From the NCBI GenBank assembly GCA_011033025.1, contig WFMF01000005.1, positions 1,488,001-1,552,000 on the forward strand: a stretch of DNA of 64,000 nt. The letters run 5' to 3'. The translations under genes and the position numbers were made by a program. This DNA comes from Beroe forskalii. Taxonomy: Eukaryota > Ctenophora > Nuda > Beroida > Beroidae. Under the pieces are notes generated by a model that had not been told where the DNA came from, did not search any database, and was given only the letters and a program-made list of their open reading frames with translations. Positions 39,296-49,980 of this stretch are shown piece by piece (the first letter of the stretch is position 1; each line of letters begins with the position of its first letter).

Positions 39296-41339
39296 GTAAA
39301 TACTTCCAACTAGAAATGTTATCGAAAAAATGTTATAGAAATGTTATCGGCATAGATAGTAGCAAAAACGGACATTCAAACAAATAACTTTGATCACTTT
39401 GATGGATGTTTTTCGTATGAAAAGCTCGGTCCAAGAAGTTAGGCGACATGAGGTTGGACAGAGTTCTGGTTAATGCGATTATAGTACGAAGTTTAAATGA
39501 ATTATTTGGCTAATGTAATGACTGCCAAATACAAATCAATTTTTTGACGCTTCTGGACCCTAGTATAGTTCTCTCTTCACTAGTAAGCTACAATGTATAA
39601 ATTATGTACACCGCAGTAGTCAGTACTATACACACAGGTCAATATGCATACATCCATGATATTCATCAATACATTAATACAGCAATAGCTAAATGATCTG
39701 CTGCCAGCTGCCAGCACATCACTATTTTAATAATCGCATAATTGTATAATTATGCTCATAATTATGCTCATAATTAATCCTACACACACATCCCGCGATC
39801 TCTCCTCAATAGCACACACATTGTGTAACATTTAACTATGAGTAGCGTGTACTCATCGAGTGAGATAGTTATTACTAAACAGATTGAGATGTACTCTAGA
39901 GGAACTTACACTTGTTTGACAAAGAACTCTCAGTTGTAGACTTTCTGTAAAGTTCGCATTGCTGGCCTTTATTTAGCCGGCCCTGAGGACAAAAAAGACT
40001 CATATTTTTGAACCAAACATTTTTTAAACATTTACCAGATCAAGCATTTATACTCTGAAATAACCATTTAAGCCCATTTAACTCACTGGATTCAACTATC
40101 ATAAAACTTTCTGTGTTAACATGGTGAAATTTTCCTTTATCTTAGAATTTAAAAAATTATCTTTTGACCTTCGATTTAACCGGCTTTTAAACATCCATTT
40201 GGAAATAAATTTCAACGTCGCTTTCATCCCTAAGGTCCGCTTAAATAGGGTAACTTTCTATAGTTAAAACGATAAGGAATAATTTTCTTCTTTTACCCAA
40301 TAAGGAAATGAAACATTATTTCAAATTATAAATAAAAAAGAATCTTGAAGTTATACGCAAGTTTTTCACTGGATCCATATATTTTGTACTATGCACTTGC
40401 TTTTTATACGTAAACTGTACAACAAAAATCAGTGTTTGGCATGATGAGTGATGATCTAAGTTCTATGTAAGTTCACTAATTGCCACATGCTAATATTGGC
40501 CCACACAACACATTACTAATGTGCCAGAAGATGTAACCTGAAACCAGTACACACACCCTCCTCGTCTTGACATATGACATACGTGCAGATGTAAGACTTC
40601 TCTGTTGCAGCCAGCGTACATTAGTACATTCAGATGTACAGGTGTGTTATACACTGTGTGTATAATGTATATTCAATACAATACTCTGTTACATTGTTAA
40701 ATCTATGTATAGTTTTCATGAATCATGTAGAAGTACCACTTCTCAATGTACACTTCACAGAATCAGCAATCTCAGTCTGTCAACCCATCTACACCATGCA
40801 ACAATAGCAGTCAACACTCAACAGTGTCTTCTAAAAGGAGTAGTTAAGAGTGCCCGTATAAAAGCGAATGAAAGGTAGAAACTTGGGCGTTTCCGGTTTA
40901 TAAAAGTGTGTAGAGCTGAGGTAATACGTTACATCATGCTACGGACATTGGGTGTTACACTTATTTTACTACCTTCTAGCTCTAGTTAAAGTCTTACTCT
41001 CCTACCGCTGTAAGCTACTTGTTACATATACTGTACAGTAGCCATTGTCCTCTTTGTCCTTCCATTGTACTACGTTTCATTAGTACGCGATTCACTCGTT
41101 TTCTTCCTGCTAGTGTGTAGGGATTTCGATAAAGCCTCAATGACATTGCACTACATATTAAAACTTCGTCTGAAAAAGAACAAATTTTCGATGCCTGAAC
41201 TTTGTTTTTACGACCAAAATTATCAATCAATCAAGTATTTTAACCGCCTACGAAGTACGAGGACTCAAAATTACACTTTTCTACCAACTTAACAACTTGT
41301 ATCTGTAAGAAGTCTTGTAACGCCTCGTTCCCTTGGCAG

Positions 41340-44300
41340 GTCATCTCTAACACACAGATGAATGGAACATCCAGGGCCAAAGTGTACGCTGATGTCAATG
41401 TCAACAACCCCCGCGACTATTGGGACTATGAGAACCATCAGACTGAGTGGGGGTGAGTCCGCTGCTTGCTCTTCTCTTCTAACTTGCTTTCGTATTCATT
41501 AGTTCTATTTTAGTATATAGCTCTTTTTTAAACAGTGGAGAGGAAGTAAACTTTGCCATTCGGAAAATCATGTTCAGAATCACAGAGTCTTGAAACCTAA
41601 TTCATGCCTCCCATTCCCAAACCCTACAAACTTGTACCTTTCTGTATACAGTGCTCCAAGTGTCTGACCCTATCTCTCAATCCATGCCTCTCAAAACTCA
41701 TCCCCCTATACCGACCAACACAGTGTCTGACCTTCTCTCCCCAGGAACCAGGACAACTACCAGTTGGTCAGGAAGCTGGGGCGTGGCAAGTACAGCGAGG
41801 TCTTCGAAGGGGTCGATATTAGAACTCCCAACTTAAAGGTCGTCGTCAAGATACTCAAGCCAGGTCACATTTGTCAGAGGTCTGTGATATCTCAATGTCA
41901 ACAACCGATATTGTGTATATAGATTCTAGACCACTGATGGATGCTGGGCTGATATTTCAATCAAATAATGCAAAAACTGACAAGGGTAATATTGTGTATT
42001 CGTCTCAGGTTGGATCTTTCTTACAATATTTATGTTTGTTGCAGCCAGTAAAACGTAAAAAGATAAAGCGTGAAATAAAGATCTTAGAGAACTTGAAGAA
42101 CGGTCCGAACATCATCACGCTTATGGACGTTGTTAAGGACCCTATTGCACGGACGCCTGCTTTGGTCTTCGAGTACGTCAACAACCGAGACTTCAAGGTG
42201 AGCGGGCATTGAAATGAGCCGTTGTTCAGCGTTTCTAAATTTAAGATCATGCAGAATCCTGATAATTGCGAAATAGATTGTTAAGACATTCCAACTGAGT
42301 CAAATGCTTCTGGCAGCACACTAAATTCATACCTTGTTTTCAGCAACTGTATCAGACGCTAACAGACCTTGATATTAGATACTACATGTTTGAGCTGCTG
42401 AAAGCTCTGGACTTCTGTCACAGTATGGGCATTATGCACAGGGATGTGAAGCCCACAAGAATCCACTACACACGATCCATCTTGTTATGACGACTCTTTA
42501 TTGGTCCTCATTTTGTGTTTAAGAGTTGATAAAACCCAGATTTTCTGCTTGTAAGTAGGGTGTGCAGTTATCGGTCAGCTGCTGAGTTGGTCTTAACATA
42601 CCACGTGATAATTGTATGTCACGTGACCATGTTACATGATCAGTAGGGGTTGTCAGTCAGCGACTCTGAGACCCCTGCTAACACCTTCTTTTCAGGGATG
42701 TGAAGCCGCACAATGTGATGATAGACCATGAAAAGAGGCAGCTGCGTTTGATTGATTGGGGGCTGGCAGAGTTCTACCACCCTGGACAGCAGTACAACGT
42801 TAGAGTGGCCAGCAGATACTTCAAGGGTCCAGAACTACTCATAGACTACCAGGTTTCATAGCAAGAGGAATGTTTTCAGTTGAAGCTCGGGCAATCTTAC
42901 ACCTTTGATATGTCTCATGAAAACATGAATGTTAGTACAACTTTCCCAAAATATGGAGTTGTAAAGCGGGATATTCAAAAATCAAAAGAACACTCTTTCA
43001 GGAGTACGACTATTCGTTGGACATGTGGAGTTACGGGTGTATGTTTGCTAGCATGGTGAGTTTGCTTAGATTCTCTTCCTAGCTAATTGCTGATACGATG
43101 CCTTCCTATCGCGTGATTTCCCGCCAAATTGCTTGATACACACTAACACATGATGCAGTAAACTCGTTCGCTATATCGGCTTCTAGTCAATTGTATTCAT
43201 CGCAAAAGCAAGTCAATATGTACAGTTATACATTCGAGTCAAATTACGCCAAGTACATTCGAGATAATATGTTTAGATGTTGCTAGGTGTCCATCTTGAA
43301 TTTTCTCATCGCTGTTGGGGCATGGTTAGCGGTCACAATCTTAGACGGTTTTGTACTAAAACGGAAAGCGGGAAGGTCACTTTTTGGCGCGCGCGAATTT
43401 TACGATTCGCGCGCGCACACTGCACGCAACCATTAATTTTATTTCCCGGGTGGATCGACCGCGCGGCTTAAAATTTTAGTGCATTCATAAATTAAGCTGG
43501 TTATGAATGGATGATAGATGCATGAAATTAGAGAGAAAGAAAAGAGGCTCTTTTTGTCGTAATAAATTTGTGTGCTTTCAATGTGATCGATTTGGTATGT
43601 GCACGAACATTTTTCGTCATGCTCGATTGGGTGCTTAAAGTGGTGCTATACTCAAAATTGTGTCAACGTCACAGTGTTGGTATGTGGAATGTGCAAACGT
43701 AGTTATTCGTCACGCTTAATATGGCGTAGACGTAGAGTGGTGTCAACGTCATAGAGTTGGTATGCGCACGTAACGCTATTCGTCATGCTTGATTGGGTAC
43801 TGAGTGGTGTCAACGTCATTGCGTTGGTATGTGGAATGTACTTGTTTACCCATCTTCTCTGGTATAGGTTGGTTAAATGTCTCACCTTATTTTTACTACG
43901 AGCACGTTACGGTTTTTATATAATTTTCTTCATTTTCTATTTGTGGACTCACAAGTTACATTTAGTTCATTTATTGTTTATTTTATACTCTCTTTCTACT
44001 TAAAAAACTGATTCAAAGGCTTTTCATAATTCTTCCTCTAACCACATATCCGGAATTCTAATTTCACCTACATACCTTCTTCACTTGTTTTCCCATGAAT
44101 TTTAATTAGTTGAATTTCATTAGTTCGTTGTACTGGCATCAGCTTTGTGCTTGGGAGACAGACCACAACAATTATCTTATTCAATTTCCCTCTTACTCCA
44201 GCATTAATTACATTACCTTTATTAATAATTTATGCTATGATTTGCTTTCCATGAAGAATGCCTTTTATTACATTTAGCTGCGTCCCATGATTGTTTTTCT

Positions 44301-47300
44301 ACTTCCCCCTATTTCCCTTCGCTTACACTTACTTAAAGTTTGCTTCTATTCTATTACATTTACGTACTTAATACGTTCTTTTATTTACTGTCTTGGTGAA
44401 TGAGTACAAATTAAAGTAAGTTTTTAACACATTAAATGGGATGTTTACTTAATTATATGTTTATCTATAATTCTTTGTTTTCCATTAACTCTTTTCATTG
44501 AACTGGGAGCTTTTTTATTAGTTTGGTTACGGTTCGGGGTACATATGGAATGGTTTCACCTTCTATATGTGCGGCCTCCGGGGTGTAGGTTTCTTGGGCT
44601 TGGAGGCCGAAAAATCGTGTGTGGTACACTTTGTGCTGCACAATCACCCTTGCCCAACTGATGACCCATGTTAGCCCTAGAGCACTAACGTTCACTTTCA
44701 GGCCTTAAATTATTATTAAAAATCATAGAATCCTTTTTAAGCATGAATTACTGGAATGATATTACATAAATACATATGATTTAACCTTGCATGGTTACGT
44801 ATAATCGTTCATTTTTATATTGCTTTTTGTAACCCTGAGATATGGACTGATCGGACTACAGCACTTCTGTACTGTAGTTCATAGATTAAAATATGTCTGG
44901 GCAGTGAGTGTGTGCTCGTGGAGGCTTGATAGGCTCCCTTGACACGATACCTGTCGACAGTAATACGTCATGGGTGAGAGTCAGGTCATCTCCTAGCTTT
45001 AATTAGGTTAATTAGGAAATTGATATATTTTACCGCATAATTCAGCTAGCACCATAGCTGTCCTGGCTACCACCTGCGGCGACAGAAATGCTTGTGCGTG
45101 ATCACCATATCTCGAACCCTTTCTATGATTCAGGCTAGTTGGCGACTACTTTGCTTACACTTCAGCTCTAGGTATATTGACGGCTACTTGTTTACCCATC
45201 TTCTCTGGTATAGGTTGGTTAAATGTCTCACCTTATTTTTTACCACGAGCACGTTACGGTTTTTTATATAATTTTCTTCATTTTCTATTTGTGGACTCAC
45301 AAGTTACATTTAGTTCATTTATTGTTTATTTTATACTCTCTTTCTACTTAAAAACTGATTCAAAGGCTTTTCATAATTCTTCCTCTAACCACATATCCGG
45401 AATTCTAATTTCACCATACCTTCTTCACTTGTTTTCCCATGAATTTTAATTAGTTGAATTTCATTAGTTCGTAGTACTGGCATCAGCTTTGTGCTTGGGA
45501 GACAGACCGTCTATTTATACTTTTGTGGCTTACAACAATTATCTTATTCAATTTCCCTCTTACTCCAGCATTAATTACATTACCTTTTATTAATAATTTA
45601 TGCTATGATTTTGCTTTCCATGAAGAATGCCTTTTATTACATTTAGCTGCGTCCCATGATTGTTTTTCTACTTCCCCCCTATTTCCTTGGCTTACACTTA
45701 CTTCAAGTTTGCTTCTATTCTACATTACATTGTACTTTAATACGTTCTTTATTTACTGTCTTATTTGAATGAGTACAAATTAAAGTAAGTTTTTAACACA
45801 TTAAATGGGATGTTTACTTAATTATATGTTTATCTAATTCTTTGTTTTCCATTAACTCTTTTCATTGAACTGGGAGCTTTTATTAGTTTGGTTACGGTTC
45901 GGGGTACATATGGAATGGTTTCACCTTCTATATGTGCGGCCTGGGGTGGGTTTCTTGGGCTTGGAGGCCGAAAAATCGTGTGTGGTACACTTTGTGCTGC
46001 ACAATCACCCTTGCCCAACTGATGACCCATGTTAGCCCTAGAGCACTAACGTTCACTTTCAGGCCTTAAATTATTATTAAAAATCATAGAATCCTTTTAA
46101 GCATGAATTACTGGAATGATATTACATAAATACATATGATTTAACCTTGCATGGTTACACGTATAATCGTTCATTTTATATTGCTTTTTGTAACCCTGAG
46201 ATATGGACTGATCGGACTACAGCACTTCTGTACTGTAGTTCATAGATTAAAATACGTCTTCGTTGGCATTGAAGACAGAGTGGTGTCAGCCATCATATAT
46301 AAGGACGTGTGCTGCTCCTCTTGCCATTATTTCGATTCGTTATTTTGGTGTTTAACTTGTCTTGCTTAACGTGTTGTTAATAAAGTACTATTGTTGTTAA
46401 GGTACCGTTGTTGTTAAGGTACCGTTGTTAAGGTACCCATTAAGGTACCGTTGTTGTTAAGGTACCCAGTAAGGTACCGTTGTTGTTAAGGTACCGTTGT
46501 TGTTAAGGTACCCAGTAAGGTACCGTTGTTGTTAAGGTACCCAGTAAGGTACCGTTGTTGTTAAGGTACCCAGTTAGGTACCGTTGTTGATAAGGTACCG
46601 TTGTTGATAAGGTACCGTTGTTAAAAAGGTACCGTTGTTAATAAGGTACCGTTGTTGTTAAGGTACCGTTGTTGTTAAGGTACCGTTGTTAAGGTACCCA
46701 GTAAGGTACCGTTGTTGTTAAGGTACCCAGTAAGGTACCGTTGTTGTTAAGGTACCGCTGTTAAGGTACCGTTGTTGTTAAGGTACCCAGTAAGGTACCG
46801 TTGTTGTTAAGGTACCCAGTAAGGTACCGTTGTTGTTAAGGTACCCGGTTAGGTACCGTTGTTGTTAAGGTACCCAGTTAGGTACCGTTGTTGTTAAGGT
46901 ACCGTTGTTAATAAGGTACCGTTGTTAATAAGTTACCGTTGTTAATAAGGTACCGTTGTTAATAAGGTACCGTTGTTAATAAGGTACCGTTGTTAATAAG
47001 GTACCGTCGTTGATAAGGTACCGTCGTTGATAAGGTACCATTGTAAATAAGGTACCGTTGTCAATAAGGTACCGCTGTTAATAATGTACCGTTGTTTATA
47101 AGGTACCGTTGTTGATAAGGTACCATTGTAAATAAGGTAGCGTTGTTAATAAGGTACCGTTGTAAATAAAGTACCGTTGTTAATAAGGTACCGCTGTCAA
47201 TGAGGTACCGCTGTTAACAAGGTGCCGTTGTTTTAAAGGTACCGTTGTTAATAAGGTACCGTTGTTAACCTTCACTTCCTTCCTTTCCTCCCTTACCTTC

Positions 47301-48166
47301 ATTGCTCTAGTGAGCTACGATCTATTGATCCACGATATAGTGAGCTATGATCTTGTGAGATACGGTCTACTGATCCACGATCTACTGATGTGCGATGTAG
47401 TGATCCACGATCTAGTGAGTTACGGTGTACAGATCCACGATCTAGTGAGCCATGATCTACTGATCCACGATCTACTGATCTGCGATCTAGTGATCCACGA
47501 TCTAGTGAGCTATGATGTACTGATCCACGATCTACTGACCTGCGATCTAGTGATCCACGATCAAGTTAGCTTCTATCTAGTGAGATATATATTGACCTAC
47601 GATCTTCTGATCAGATGAAGTAATGAGCTACGATTTATTGATCCACGATTTAGTGATCCACGATTTGGTAGATCTCCCATGTAAACGGCTCCCATGTAAT
47701 CGTTTTTAAAAGCAATTATCGTATTTAAAAAACGATTGTCGCTTTGTGATACGATTTTCGCGTTTTGAAAACGATTATCGTTTTTTGAAACGATTATCGT
47801 GCGATAATCGTTTTGTCGCCGATTATCGTTTTGTGCAATTTTAAAATCCAGAGATTTTTCACCGTGCGAGCCCATTGCCCCATTCATTACTATTTTCTAC
47901 GTAGACTGATATAAGATTGTACGTGTTCGGAAAGATTGTTCATTTTTTCAAAACTTTTCTTTGTTTTATTCTACCTGCAACCATGATTAACAAAATTAAT
48001 TCCTCAGATTTTCCGGAAAGAGCCATTTTTCCACGGGCACGACAACTACGATCAGTTAGTAAGGATAGGGAAGGTATTGGGTACCGCTGAGCTATTCGAG
48101 TACGTAGACACTTATAACGTTGACTTGGACCCAAGATACAACGAACTTTTGGGAAGGCATGAATGA
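41340..48166 (+). CDS. CSNK2A: Casein kinase II subunit alpha, spliced; 3' end degraded
   Basis: Exons read 41,340-41,452, 41,745-41,863, 42,049-42,197, 42,344-42,441, 42,696-42,852, 43,002-43,055 and 48,008-48,156, with consistent phases. They encode the CK2 alpha kinase domain in order: ARVYTDVN-like start (AKVYADVN), [13 protein letters not shown], Gly loop [20 protein letters not shown], basic [27 protein letters not shown], catalytic loop [60 protein letters not shown], and [25 protein letters not shown] to ELLGR. CK2 alpha is the catalytic subunit of a constitutive Ser/Thr kinase. Oddities: the junction at 42,441/42,696 has no canonical donor; the last conserved exon ends AAG|GCATGA (GC donor) or reads GRHE-stop; the remaining C-lobe exons are decayed. 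The copy may be a degenerating paralogue. Confidence 0.85.
42439..42707 (+). repeat. 15-bp direct duplication bounding an intron in the kinase catalytic loop
   Basis: CAGGGATGTGAAGCC occurs at 42,439-42,453, at the end of one exon, and again at 42,693-42,707, at the start of the next. The intron between is 254 bases. The reading frame is continuous only if splicing joins CAC-AG to G-GAT, which gives a GG...AG intron. A GT...AG pair within the copies (GAT|GTGAAG to GTGAAG|CCG) keeps frame but drops Val-Lys, including the catalytic-loop Lys. Confidence 0.85.
43387..43416. repeat. Perfect GC-rich hairpin
   Basis: GCGCGCGCGAAT and ATTCGCGCGCGC flank a 6-base loop. It lies in the large intron of the kinase locus. 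Confidence 0.9.
43640..43838. repeat. Short tandem repeat, about 75-80-bp unit
   Basis: Three copies of GTGTCAACGTCA...GTTGGTATG...ATTCGTCA-type units. The third is cut by the start of the 1.3-kb repeat. A related GTGGTGTCAGCC stretch occurs just past the end of that repeat pair (46,280-46,292), so the pair seems inserted in this array. Confidence 0.7.
43839..44892 (+). repeat. 1.3-kb repeat family, copy A of the second tandem pair (5'-truncated)
   Basis: Starts at TACTTGTTTACCCATC, about 290 bases into the family unit, and runs to the common ATTAAAAT end. The stretch 44,495-44,720 is identical to 17,578-17,803 in the first pair, while other parts differ more. Confidence 0.9.
44924..46253 (+). 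repeat. 1.3-kb repeat family, copy B of the second tandem pair
   Basis: Full-length unit from GCTTGATAGGCTCCC to ATTAAAAT, joined to copy A by the same spacer sequence as in the first pair. It lies within the 5-kb intron of the kinase locus. Confidence 0.9.
46380..47275 (+). repeat. GGTACC minisatellite with two interleaved unit types
   Basis: About fifty units beginning GGTACC. The first half mixes a 17-base unit GGTACCGTTGTTGTTAA with a 12-base unit GGTACCCAGTAA; the second half is mostly GGTACCGTTGTTAATAA. It lies inside the kinase locus intron. Confidence 0.95.
47310..47665 (+). repeat. 15-bp minisatellite
   Basis: Alternating 15-mers TGATCCACGATCTAG and TGAGCTATGATCTAC. As the unit is a multiple of three, it gives a 118-codon repetitive ORF (47,262-47,618) that I do not consider coding. 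It is followed at 47,669-47,690 by TCTCCCATGTAAACGG, a piece of the MITE end found at 53,763. Confidence 0.93.
47695..47830. repeat. Cluster of ACGATTATCG words
   Basis: The ten-base word and its reverse complement recur about eight times with AAAA/TTTT spacers, giving many alternative hairpins just before the last conserved kinase exon. Confidence 0.75.
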
Positions 48167-48511
48167 TTCAAAGATTTTACTTCGCTTTCCAACTATAAAT
48201 CCAATCTTGGTGGTCTTAAAAGCGGCTATCGGAATTTATTTGACGATCAAACTCCAAATAGAATTATTTTTTACCTACTGGTATGTGTGCTCATAGGAGC
48301 ATGTTGAAGGTTACAAATGTATTGGCAGAAAGGGCTTGGCAAAGATTATCTGGAGCTTCGTGACTGCACAACATAGTCCGAACCTTCAAGAGAGAAGAGG
48401 AATTTGGGAAGGATAGTTCCTGCGTGAAAAGGAGCTATGGGAAAACGATCAGTTCTCTGTCCTTCTGCATACATTAACAGACCTAAATGAGGTGATTCTT
48501 CCTCGTTTCAG

Positions 48512-48890
48512 ACATTGAAGAAGAAAGATGGAGACAGTTCGTTATTAGAACAATCATTGGGTCCAGGCTTCTATTACCTGAACAGGTTATTTTTGCAGTC
48601 ACATGGACAGTTCACGGCAAAGCCCAACGATCACACCCAGCAGGTTTTAGTCCCCTTCTTTCAAAACTTCATCGGATCTGTGAGTTTTAATCCCTCCTTT
48701 CAAAACTTAATTCGGATTTCAAAACGCCCACTTTTGAATACGATTATGAATTCTTGATCGATATTAATGCTCGTAATAAAATTGTTTTATTTGCTTTTAA
48801 ATTTGAATGGGCATTTTTTTCAGATCCTATTCTACAAGAAGTAAAACAAAGAGAGTCCACAAAGTGCGACAGCACCGTTTGACACGTGTC
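48512..48890 (+). pseudogene. Decayed C-lobe exons of the casein kinase II alpha locus
   Basis: After a good acceptor (CTCGTTTCAG|ACATT) the DNA matches the next CK2 alpha exon piece by piece in shifting frames: ERWRQFV in one, then FYYLNRLF...SHGQFTAK in another (compare RWERFV and DFLDKLLRYDHQSRLTAR). The expected RHS codon is RH-stop. A second segment after TTTTTTTCAG at about 48,825 (DPILQEVKQRES) resembles the HPYFYxVVK end. Frame changes and small gaps mean a normal C-lobe cannot be encoded from these exons as given. Confidence 0.6.
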
Positions 48891-49980
48891 GTATCGAAGA
48901 CCGGGCATCTTTTCCTAATTCAGATAGAACGAACTCAAATGATATAATGATTTACAGTGTACGGCTAGTCAAGGGAACAGATATATCCACACGTTTTATG
49001 TGAGAGTGTGCATTTTACAAATTGTAATCCTGTAACCCACTGCCAGATAATATGAGTGAAAAATTAGATCAAAATGTTCCAAATTCCCCTGGTATCTTGC
49101 AATTAATTAATCAATTATTAAATTAGTATCCAATTGATGATCGTAAAATTTAAGAGCTGGCAATGGGTTTGCATTCTCAGTGTCGCCTTGTTTTTCTTTA
49201 ATTTTTAAGAGGTATCTTACTAGGGCCCTTTGTATTCCAGATCGGTGCTTCAGTTTATCAAATTGGTTCCTGGATTTTATGATTTGAATTTACTATAATT
49301 CAATAAAATGTTGCAGTTGCACTATTTTTATTTTATGTTTCGAATAGTTAACCTAACTATAATTAAGACAAATATGAAATAACACTCAGTTCCTTCCGTT
49401 CGGAAATTAACTCATAGGTCTTGCCATGCTCTCATTTGTCTCAGCTGTCTAAGATCGGTTATAAGACGTGTTTTAACACAATCTCAAATGCCTTAGTTTT
49501 ATCGTGTGAAATGCACACTTGCCTCCGAAAGATACCTCGTCCTGTTGACTTGCTTTTCTGGGGCTGGGTGGAACTATATGTTGCGCTATATTTGTATTAC
49601 AAATATAATTGATTTTTATAAACTGAAATTGTCAAATAATTCGTTTTTTATTACGCCATGTCTTGAATTAGACAGACCGGAAGTTAAAGGGATGGTGTAG
49701 TTTTCAGACCAAAATTTTAAGATTCTCTTATTCCGCCATTCCGGTAAAATAGCTACTTATTACATGACCTGTAATAAGGGATCATTCAGTTTCACATAGC
49801 ACGTAATTTTTGGCCATTTTCAACCTCCTTCCTCATACTCATAGTCATAGTCAAACGTAATCAAAGCCCACCCCACATCTTGAGGAGAATATTACGTAAT
49901 CATGCCTAACCCCCACCCCCCTCCACCTATACTTGAGTAGACAATGAATGAATGGACAGTGTAAATACTCAAATATTGAT
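48891..49980. other. No gene seen
   Basis: AT-rich flank of the kinase locus; no supported exon. Confidence 0.4.

Follow-up and report, generated by a model that had tools for sequence, protein, structure and literature searches.

An intron within the catalytic-loop codons of a CK2-alpha gene in the Beroe forskalii assembly begins with a copy of the start of the next exon where a GT donor is expected. The same replacement recurs at introns of unrelated genes, with intact acceptors, and at least one of the affected introns, in a Na,K-ATPase gene, is old. The duplication itself is present in the sequence; the odds are somewhat against its being a real biological feature. We give slightly better than even chances to the reading that sequence resembling spliced RNA entered the assembly consensus, as opposed to this being a new kind of intron.

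A direct repeat at a CK2-alpha intron lacking a donor

The window, i.e., the whole stretch of 64,000 nucleotides that was analysed, carries seven aligned exons of the gene on its plus strand. Exon A (41358–41452, ending in EWG) was aligned from 41370, its ATG at 41358 being read by eye, and is followed by a GTGAGT donor. Exons B (41745–41863), C (42049–42197), E (42696–42852, (R)DVKPHNV to LLIDYQ) and F (43002–43055) are each followed by GT, and exon G (48008–48166) runs, after GRH, into a GAA TGA stop at 48164–48166, with a possible GC donor at 48157. Exon D (42344–42441, ending in MGIMHR) has no GT behind it, and the five other introns aligned in the gene are all GT-AG. Exons A to G are open, free of stops and frameshifts, and their translation agrees with human CK2-alpha at 219 of 267 aligned residues. 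Repeats of other kinds were also seen in this region: 18 nt of exon A (41392–41409) recur with 17 of 18 positions identical in the intron between exons B and C (41889–41906), and the 5-kb intron contains a minisatellite of GTACCGTTGTTGTTAAG-like units at 46401–47260, with a similar motif in L045. A direct duplication of at least 300 bp, from about 43840 and about 45180 by eye, also lies in this 5-kb intron.

The initial annotation had described a 15-bp duplication at both edges of the 254-base intron in the HRDVKPHN codons, and both copies of this sequence, CAGGGATGTGAAGCC, are indeed exact, at 42439–42453 and 42693–42707, offset by 254 bp. The 216-Mb assembly holds two exact matches to it, both at the CK2-alpha intron. 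With up to two mismatches allowed, the window again holds two, a number that none of 100 shuffles reached (shuffle mean 0.08). Copy 1 comprises the CAG at the end of exon D and, in donor position, a 12-nt copy of the start of exon E, whereas copy 2 comprises the acceptor CAG and the genuine start of exon E. The end of exon D in the assembly reads CAG|GGATGTGAAGCC, with the copied exon start standing behind it in exact mRNA register and intron sequence following. By eye, the likeness of copy 1 continues past a 1-nt gap (GAAGCC-CACAA versus GAAGCCGCACAA), which makes the copy 18 nt long with the gap and 12 nt without it.

Sliding the junction through the repeat by eye produced no GT-AG pair, only non-canonical ones such as GG-AG and GT-AT, in agreement with the earlier statement that no such shift yields a GT-AG pair that preserves the protein. 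A GG-AG junction, with an intervening sequence of 254 nt (42442–42695), leaves the protein intact and uses the good acceptor, while the GT-AG pair that lies within the copies (42446–42705) loses Val-Lys from HRDVKPHN; both points had been anticipated. The intron has a branch-like sequence (by eye), a pyrimidine tract and an AG acceptor (TGCTAACACCTTCTTTTCAG). This acceptor, with its pyrimidine tract and CAG (42675–42695, CTGCTAAC), reaches 14.8 bits in our own model built from 64 surveyed GT-AG introns, whose median is 9.7. A GT or GC donor compatible with the reading frame was not found in the intron. The donor-like sites deeper inside it, GTAAGT at 42551 with 4.8 bits and another at 42560 with 7.4 bits (the survey median being 8.1), are all located downstream of an in-frame stop at 42488. 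Since the acceptor is strong and only the start of the intron is abnormal, the fault lies at the 5' end.

The direct repeat at both edges would suit a recent gain of the intron by insertion with a 15-bp target-site duplication, and short direct repeats flank many new Daphnia introns and a new euglenid intron in the passages of PMC3443670 and PMC4770533 that describe them. The interior of the CK2 intron fits this poorly. Positions 42454–42597 have no other match in the assembly. The relic of a transposon family end (42598–42662, plus strand, ending in CAGTAGGGGGTGCAGTTGTCGGTCAGCG; 80–83% identical to 12 other copies, the repeat match spanning 42598–42674 at most) stops 30 bp short of copy 2, and the duplication does not flank it. 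Given the position of the relic and the unique sequence before it, no single known inserted element is bounded by the duplication. A second partial transposon end was seen by eye at 42556–42579. With an acceptor that is strong and complete, no protein-preserving GT-AG pair, and an old intron in the Na,K-ATPase gene that bears a like scar (see below), we regard such a gain as improbable.

Introns of other genes carry the same scar

Introns were surveyed in 13 gene stretches with a purpose-written spliced protein-to-DNA aligner, with protein sequences as queries. An identity filter kept 55 introns and rejected 17, among them those at EEF2 aa581, at aa38 of the second CK2-alpha gene on C604, and at Na,K-ATPase aa71, the last being non-GT without a copy. 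A second clathrin copy (nine introns, all GT-AG) was omitted from the count as an allele and the phosphatase on C305 (96 of 263 residues identical; three introns, two of them with neither GT nor copy) as too diverged.

In the filtered set, 52 of 55 introns are GT-AG. The remaining three, in the CK2, VCP and Na,K-ATPase genes, all begin with a 7–12 nt copy of the next exon, whereas the copies at GT introns reach at most 5 nt (0 of 52 above). The VCP scar (C636) comprises 7 nt, GAG|GAGATACC at the donor side and TCCAG|GAGATACA at the acceptor side, and that of Na,K-ATPase alpha (C475) 8 nt, TCG|CTCATGTTCC and CCCAG|CTCATGTTT. Two further cases are related but less clear. EEF2 (C208) carries a 28-nt copy with two silent differences, which can be read as an exon start or as an exon end and at whose end a GC-AG cut preserves the protein; in the C604 gene, CAGATATCA and four codons are shared, and 2 of 12 nt differ, again silently. 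In all five genes, the copy starts at the exact exon-exon junction. RPS3 at aa82 and CK2A at aa73 show 4 extra nt after a good CAG.

Direct repeats of at least 5 bp across GT introns are common here (16 of 52), and 25–26% of Drosophila introns are given such repeats in a passage of PMC3443670, so short repeats as such carry little meaning. A loose local-similarity test placed 4 of 71 introns above the 99% background at the 5' edge and 5 of 71 at the 3' edge. CK2 was its highest 5'-edge scorer, and VCP and Na,K-ATPase were unremarkable in it because their copies are short (7 and 8 nt).

The survey also bears on whether B. forskalii has a functional class of non-GT introns, of the kind known from a larvacean tunicate (PMC13326754) and from euglenids (PMC4770533). 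GT-AG introns dominate, and the abnormal ones start with GGATGT, GAGATA and CTCATG, without a common donor motif. The CK2 insert folds in an ordinary way (z -0.97; 35 of 200 shuffles fold equally well), and the fold test gave no stable RNA structure joining the intron ends as in euglenids. We consider a functional class of this kind highly improbable. A U12-type reading of the VCP and C604 intron starts was considered by eye and dropped. A search of 41000–49000 against Rfam returned a single match (47671–47834), far under the gathering score.

For one scarred intron, paralogues give an indication of age. The paralogue on C641 has an ordinary donor (ATGACTGTTG|GTGAGT) at exactly the codon and phase of the scarred Na,K-ATPase intron; of two further P-type ATPases, the one on C1 has GTGGGT a codon upstream, and the donor of the one on C991 is located elsewhere (all by eye). 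The GT donor of the C641 paralogue implies that the scarred intron is old and had a normal donor before the scar. Intron gain with target duplication, which the initial annotation had put forward, thus does not account for this intron, and it finds no support as a shared cause of the scars. By analogy, we infer that the CK2 intron is probably equally old. The literature passages retrieved gave no intron positions for human CK2, only a missense CSNK2A1 variant.

The two CK2-alpha genes and the state of the window copy

A second CK2-alpha gene lies at C604:64147–65001, where residues 39–324 are encoded without introns and 201 of 286 (70%) are identical to the human protein. Its open frame comprises 338 codons, it is more diverged than the window copy, and an insert carrying a 9–12 nt repeat separates its N-terminal exon from the rest. 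No CK2-alpha was found in viral contigs, and 24 pattern matches in contigs of other genomes yielded no confirmed case. CK2-beta was not among the matches listed (25 of 87 candidates scored).

The initial annotation had also suggested a dying gene. The CK2 copy in the window alone might be a dying paralogue whose lost donor and lost last exon are lesions of its own, with C604, which has a long open frame, covering for it. In favour of this, the C-terminal exon was found on C604 only (12 of 12 candidates scored) and may have decayed in place in the window copy. A stretch at 48512–48640 (plus strand; RW..F..NxH..HP, with frameshifts), preceded by an acceptor-like site, is a possible decayed C-terminal exon, the significance of which hinges on the frameshift penalty. 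A frameshift-aware protein alignment tied with the best of 29 controls, and under five penalty settings 30, 14, 2, 0 and 0 of 141 controls were equally good. At the DNA level, aligning the C604 C-terminus with 48161–48800 gave nothing above shuffles.

The window copy may therefore be dying on grounds separate from the donor scar: its C-terminal exon is lost or decayed, and that part of the earlier suggestion may hold. Exons A to G, however, show no lesion except the donor and closely match the human protein, and the supposed substitute on C604 is the more diverged copy and is itself scarred. The VCP and Na,K-ATPase scars stay unexplained, and the assembly also lacks parts of other genes, namely part of RPL8 and the C-terminal half of clathrin heavy chain. 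Decay of this one paralogue is, in our judgment, an unlikely explanation of the scar.

Origin of the scars and comparison with known systems

The recurrence of this replacement in genes that are not related makes the data the most likely place of the overwrite, and we infer that it arose during assembly rather than in the organism. The CK2 intron would then be an ordinary, old spliceosomal intron whose first bases, including the GT donor, were replaced in the assembly by the beginning of the next exon (about 12 bases, perhaps 18), as it follows exon D in spliced mRNA. Spliced RNA-derived or other intronless sequence would have been absorbed into the consensus at exon edges, and the animal's own gene would have a normal GT donor at 42442. 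An assembly artefact had been named in the initial annotation among other options; since the copies recur in unrelated genes, at exon edges and in the precise register of the mRNA, it is the best fit, short of proof.

Viability points in the same direction. VCP matches the human protein at 629 of 752 aligned residues and has one close copy among the matches listed; with 58 of 91 candidates scored, the other listed contigs do not exceed 69%. A dead VCP donor should therefore not be viable. The filtered set gives no sign of permissive splicing, as all of its unscarred donors are GT. VCP is the mainstay of the viability argument, EEF2 being ambiguous and Na,K-ATPase being present in further copies. 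No intronless close copy of VCP or EEF2 was listed (58 of 91 and 25 of 87 candidates scored, respectively), and the source thus looks like mRNA rather than a retrocopy. An artefact also agrees with the silent nature of the differences between copies (EEF2 2 of 28, C604 2 of 12), as expected of allelic mRNA, and with the presence of similarity at both intron edges in the loose test. Moreover, the consensus has faults elsewhere. Conserved exons of EEF2 and VCP contain apparent 1-nt frameshifts, and the N-terminal part of clathrin heavy chain is present as two inverted copies lying head to head on C784 (28–45 kb and 49–66 kb), 91.6–98.5% alike by piece. Similar mirrored pairs were seen on other contigs.

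Several observations weigh against an artefact. We know of no standard polishing step or pipeline that writes 7–28 foreign bases, and polishing with RNA should have removed the seeming 1-nt errors from the EEF2 and VCP exons. It is at intron 5' ends that the clear scars (CK2, VCP, Na,K-ATPase, C604) lie, and poorly aligned introns with neither GT nor copy exist (C305 and Na,K-ATPase aa71). In the C604 copy, 2 of 12 nt differ, a higher proportion than the 3 of 204 nt in the best-matching clathrin piece.

If the scars are instead in the animal, they could stem from RNA-templated repair, in which a break near the donor is healed on a spliced mRNA template. The broken intron end would prime on the mRNA in the next exon and be copied back into exon D, leaving a short piece of exon E ahead of the remaining intron. 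Such repair would account for the mRNA register, the 5' place of the clear scars and, with an allelic mRNA as template, the silent-only differences, and repair of this type with deletion of a whole intron is reported for human cells in a passage of PMC12065846. Furthermore, RPS4X (C477:59317–60099) and RPL10 (C925:361051–361602) are single intronless open frames in this intron-rich genome; no poly-A was found in the 331 and 261 bases of 3' flank examined. On the other hand, several donor losses among about 57 core-gene introns would be harmful unless non-GT introns are spliced, all other donors in the filtered set are GT, and the loose similarity test showed no 5' bias. We therefore consider real scars of RNA-templated repair unlikely. 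Very unlikely is the fuller version, in which partial repair on spliced RNA replaced donors by 7–28 nt in several percent of introns and the spliceosome still removes the remainder.

The copies could also have arisen at the DNA level, by templated insertion or tandem duplication, for instance through polymerase-theta end joining, where the AG at the end of exon D would pair with the acceptor AG and the start of exon E would be copied. Introns contain an excess of sense-strand exon snippets of at least 12 nt from their own gene: 16 were counted, compared with 1 in antisense orientation and about 2 predicted by the cross-gene rate, and no fewer than 8 of the sense-strand snippets derive from the EEF2 array or the scars themselves. 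An acceptor together with the following exon start is tandemly duplicated in EEF2 intron 2 (C208, 342401 segment, minus strand; at least four decoy copies), in the PP1 gene (L076, C494; three copies) and in Na,K-ATPase (L094, C475; one 32-bp unit), and real local duplication seems to be active in this genome as well. However, these duplications include the acceptor, which the donor scars do not, the Na,K-ATPase switch point shares a single base (G), and the viability problem is the same as for RNA-templated repair. A DNA-level origin likewise appears unlikely.

What follows depends on where the overwrite took place. If it is in the data, gene models, counts of non-canonical introns and claims of intron gain from this assembly are unsafe, and affected introns can be flagged by testing whether an intron start equals the start of the next exon. 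If the overwrite took place in the animal, the scars would be a germline footprint of RNA-templated repair, a new repair footprint that could be counted genome-wide.

Among known systems, RNA-templated repair of double-strand breaks, as described in a passage of PMC12065846, writes a spliced-mRNA junction into the genome as seen here, but there the entire intron is removed, whereas here the 5' edge is replaced and the remainder kept. The passages on human cells in PMC12065846 and PMC11390984 describe whole-intron deletion or intron pop-out and no scar confined to the 5' edge. Literature searches on cDNA contamination in assemblies and on partial intron loss yielded nothing. Daphnia introns arising from double-strand-break repair share the direct repeats at both edges (passage of PMC3443670), yet those introns are new, while the sister site here indicates an old intron, and its donor is absent. 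Introners likewise have duplicated target bases at their splice edges, of 3–9 bp in the relevant passage of PMC9860276 compared with 15 bp here; the CK2 intron, however, is not filled by a member of a repeated family, and its duplication provides no usable splice pair. The non-canonical introns of Fritillaria (PMC13326754) and the nonconventional introns of euglenids (PMC4770533), of which a recently gained one carries an 8-nt direct repeat, also lack a GT donor, but in B. forskalii GT-AG is the rule, the acceptor is classic and the fold ordinary. Finally, tandem duplication of AGGT segments (passage of PMC3443670) resembles the present case as local duplication beside splice sites, whereas here only 12–15 bp are duplicated, without AGGT and with unrelated sequence between the copies.
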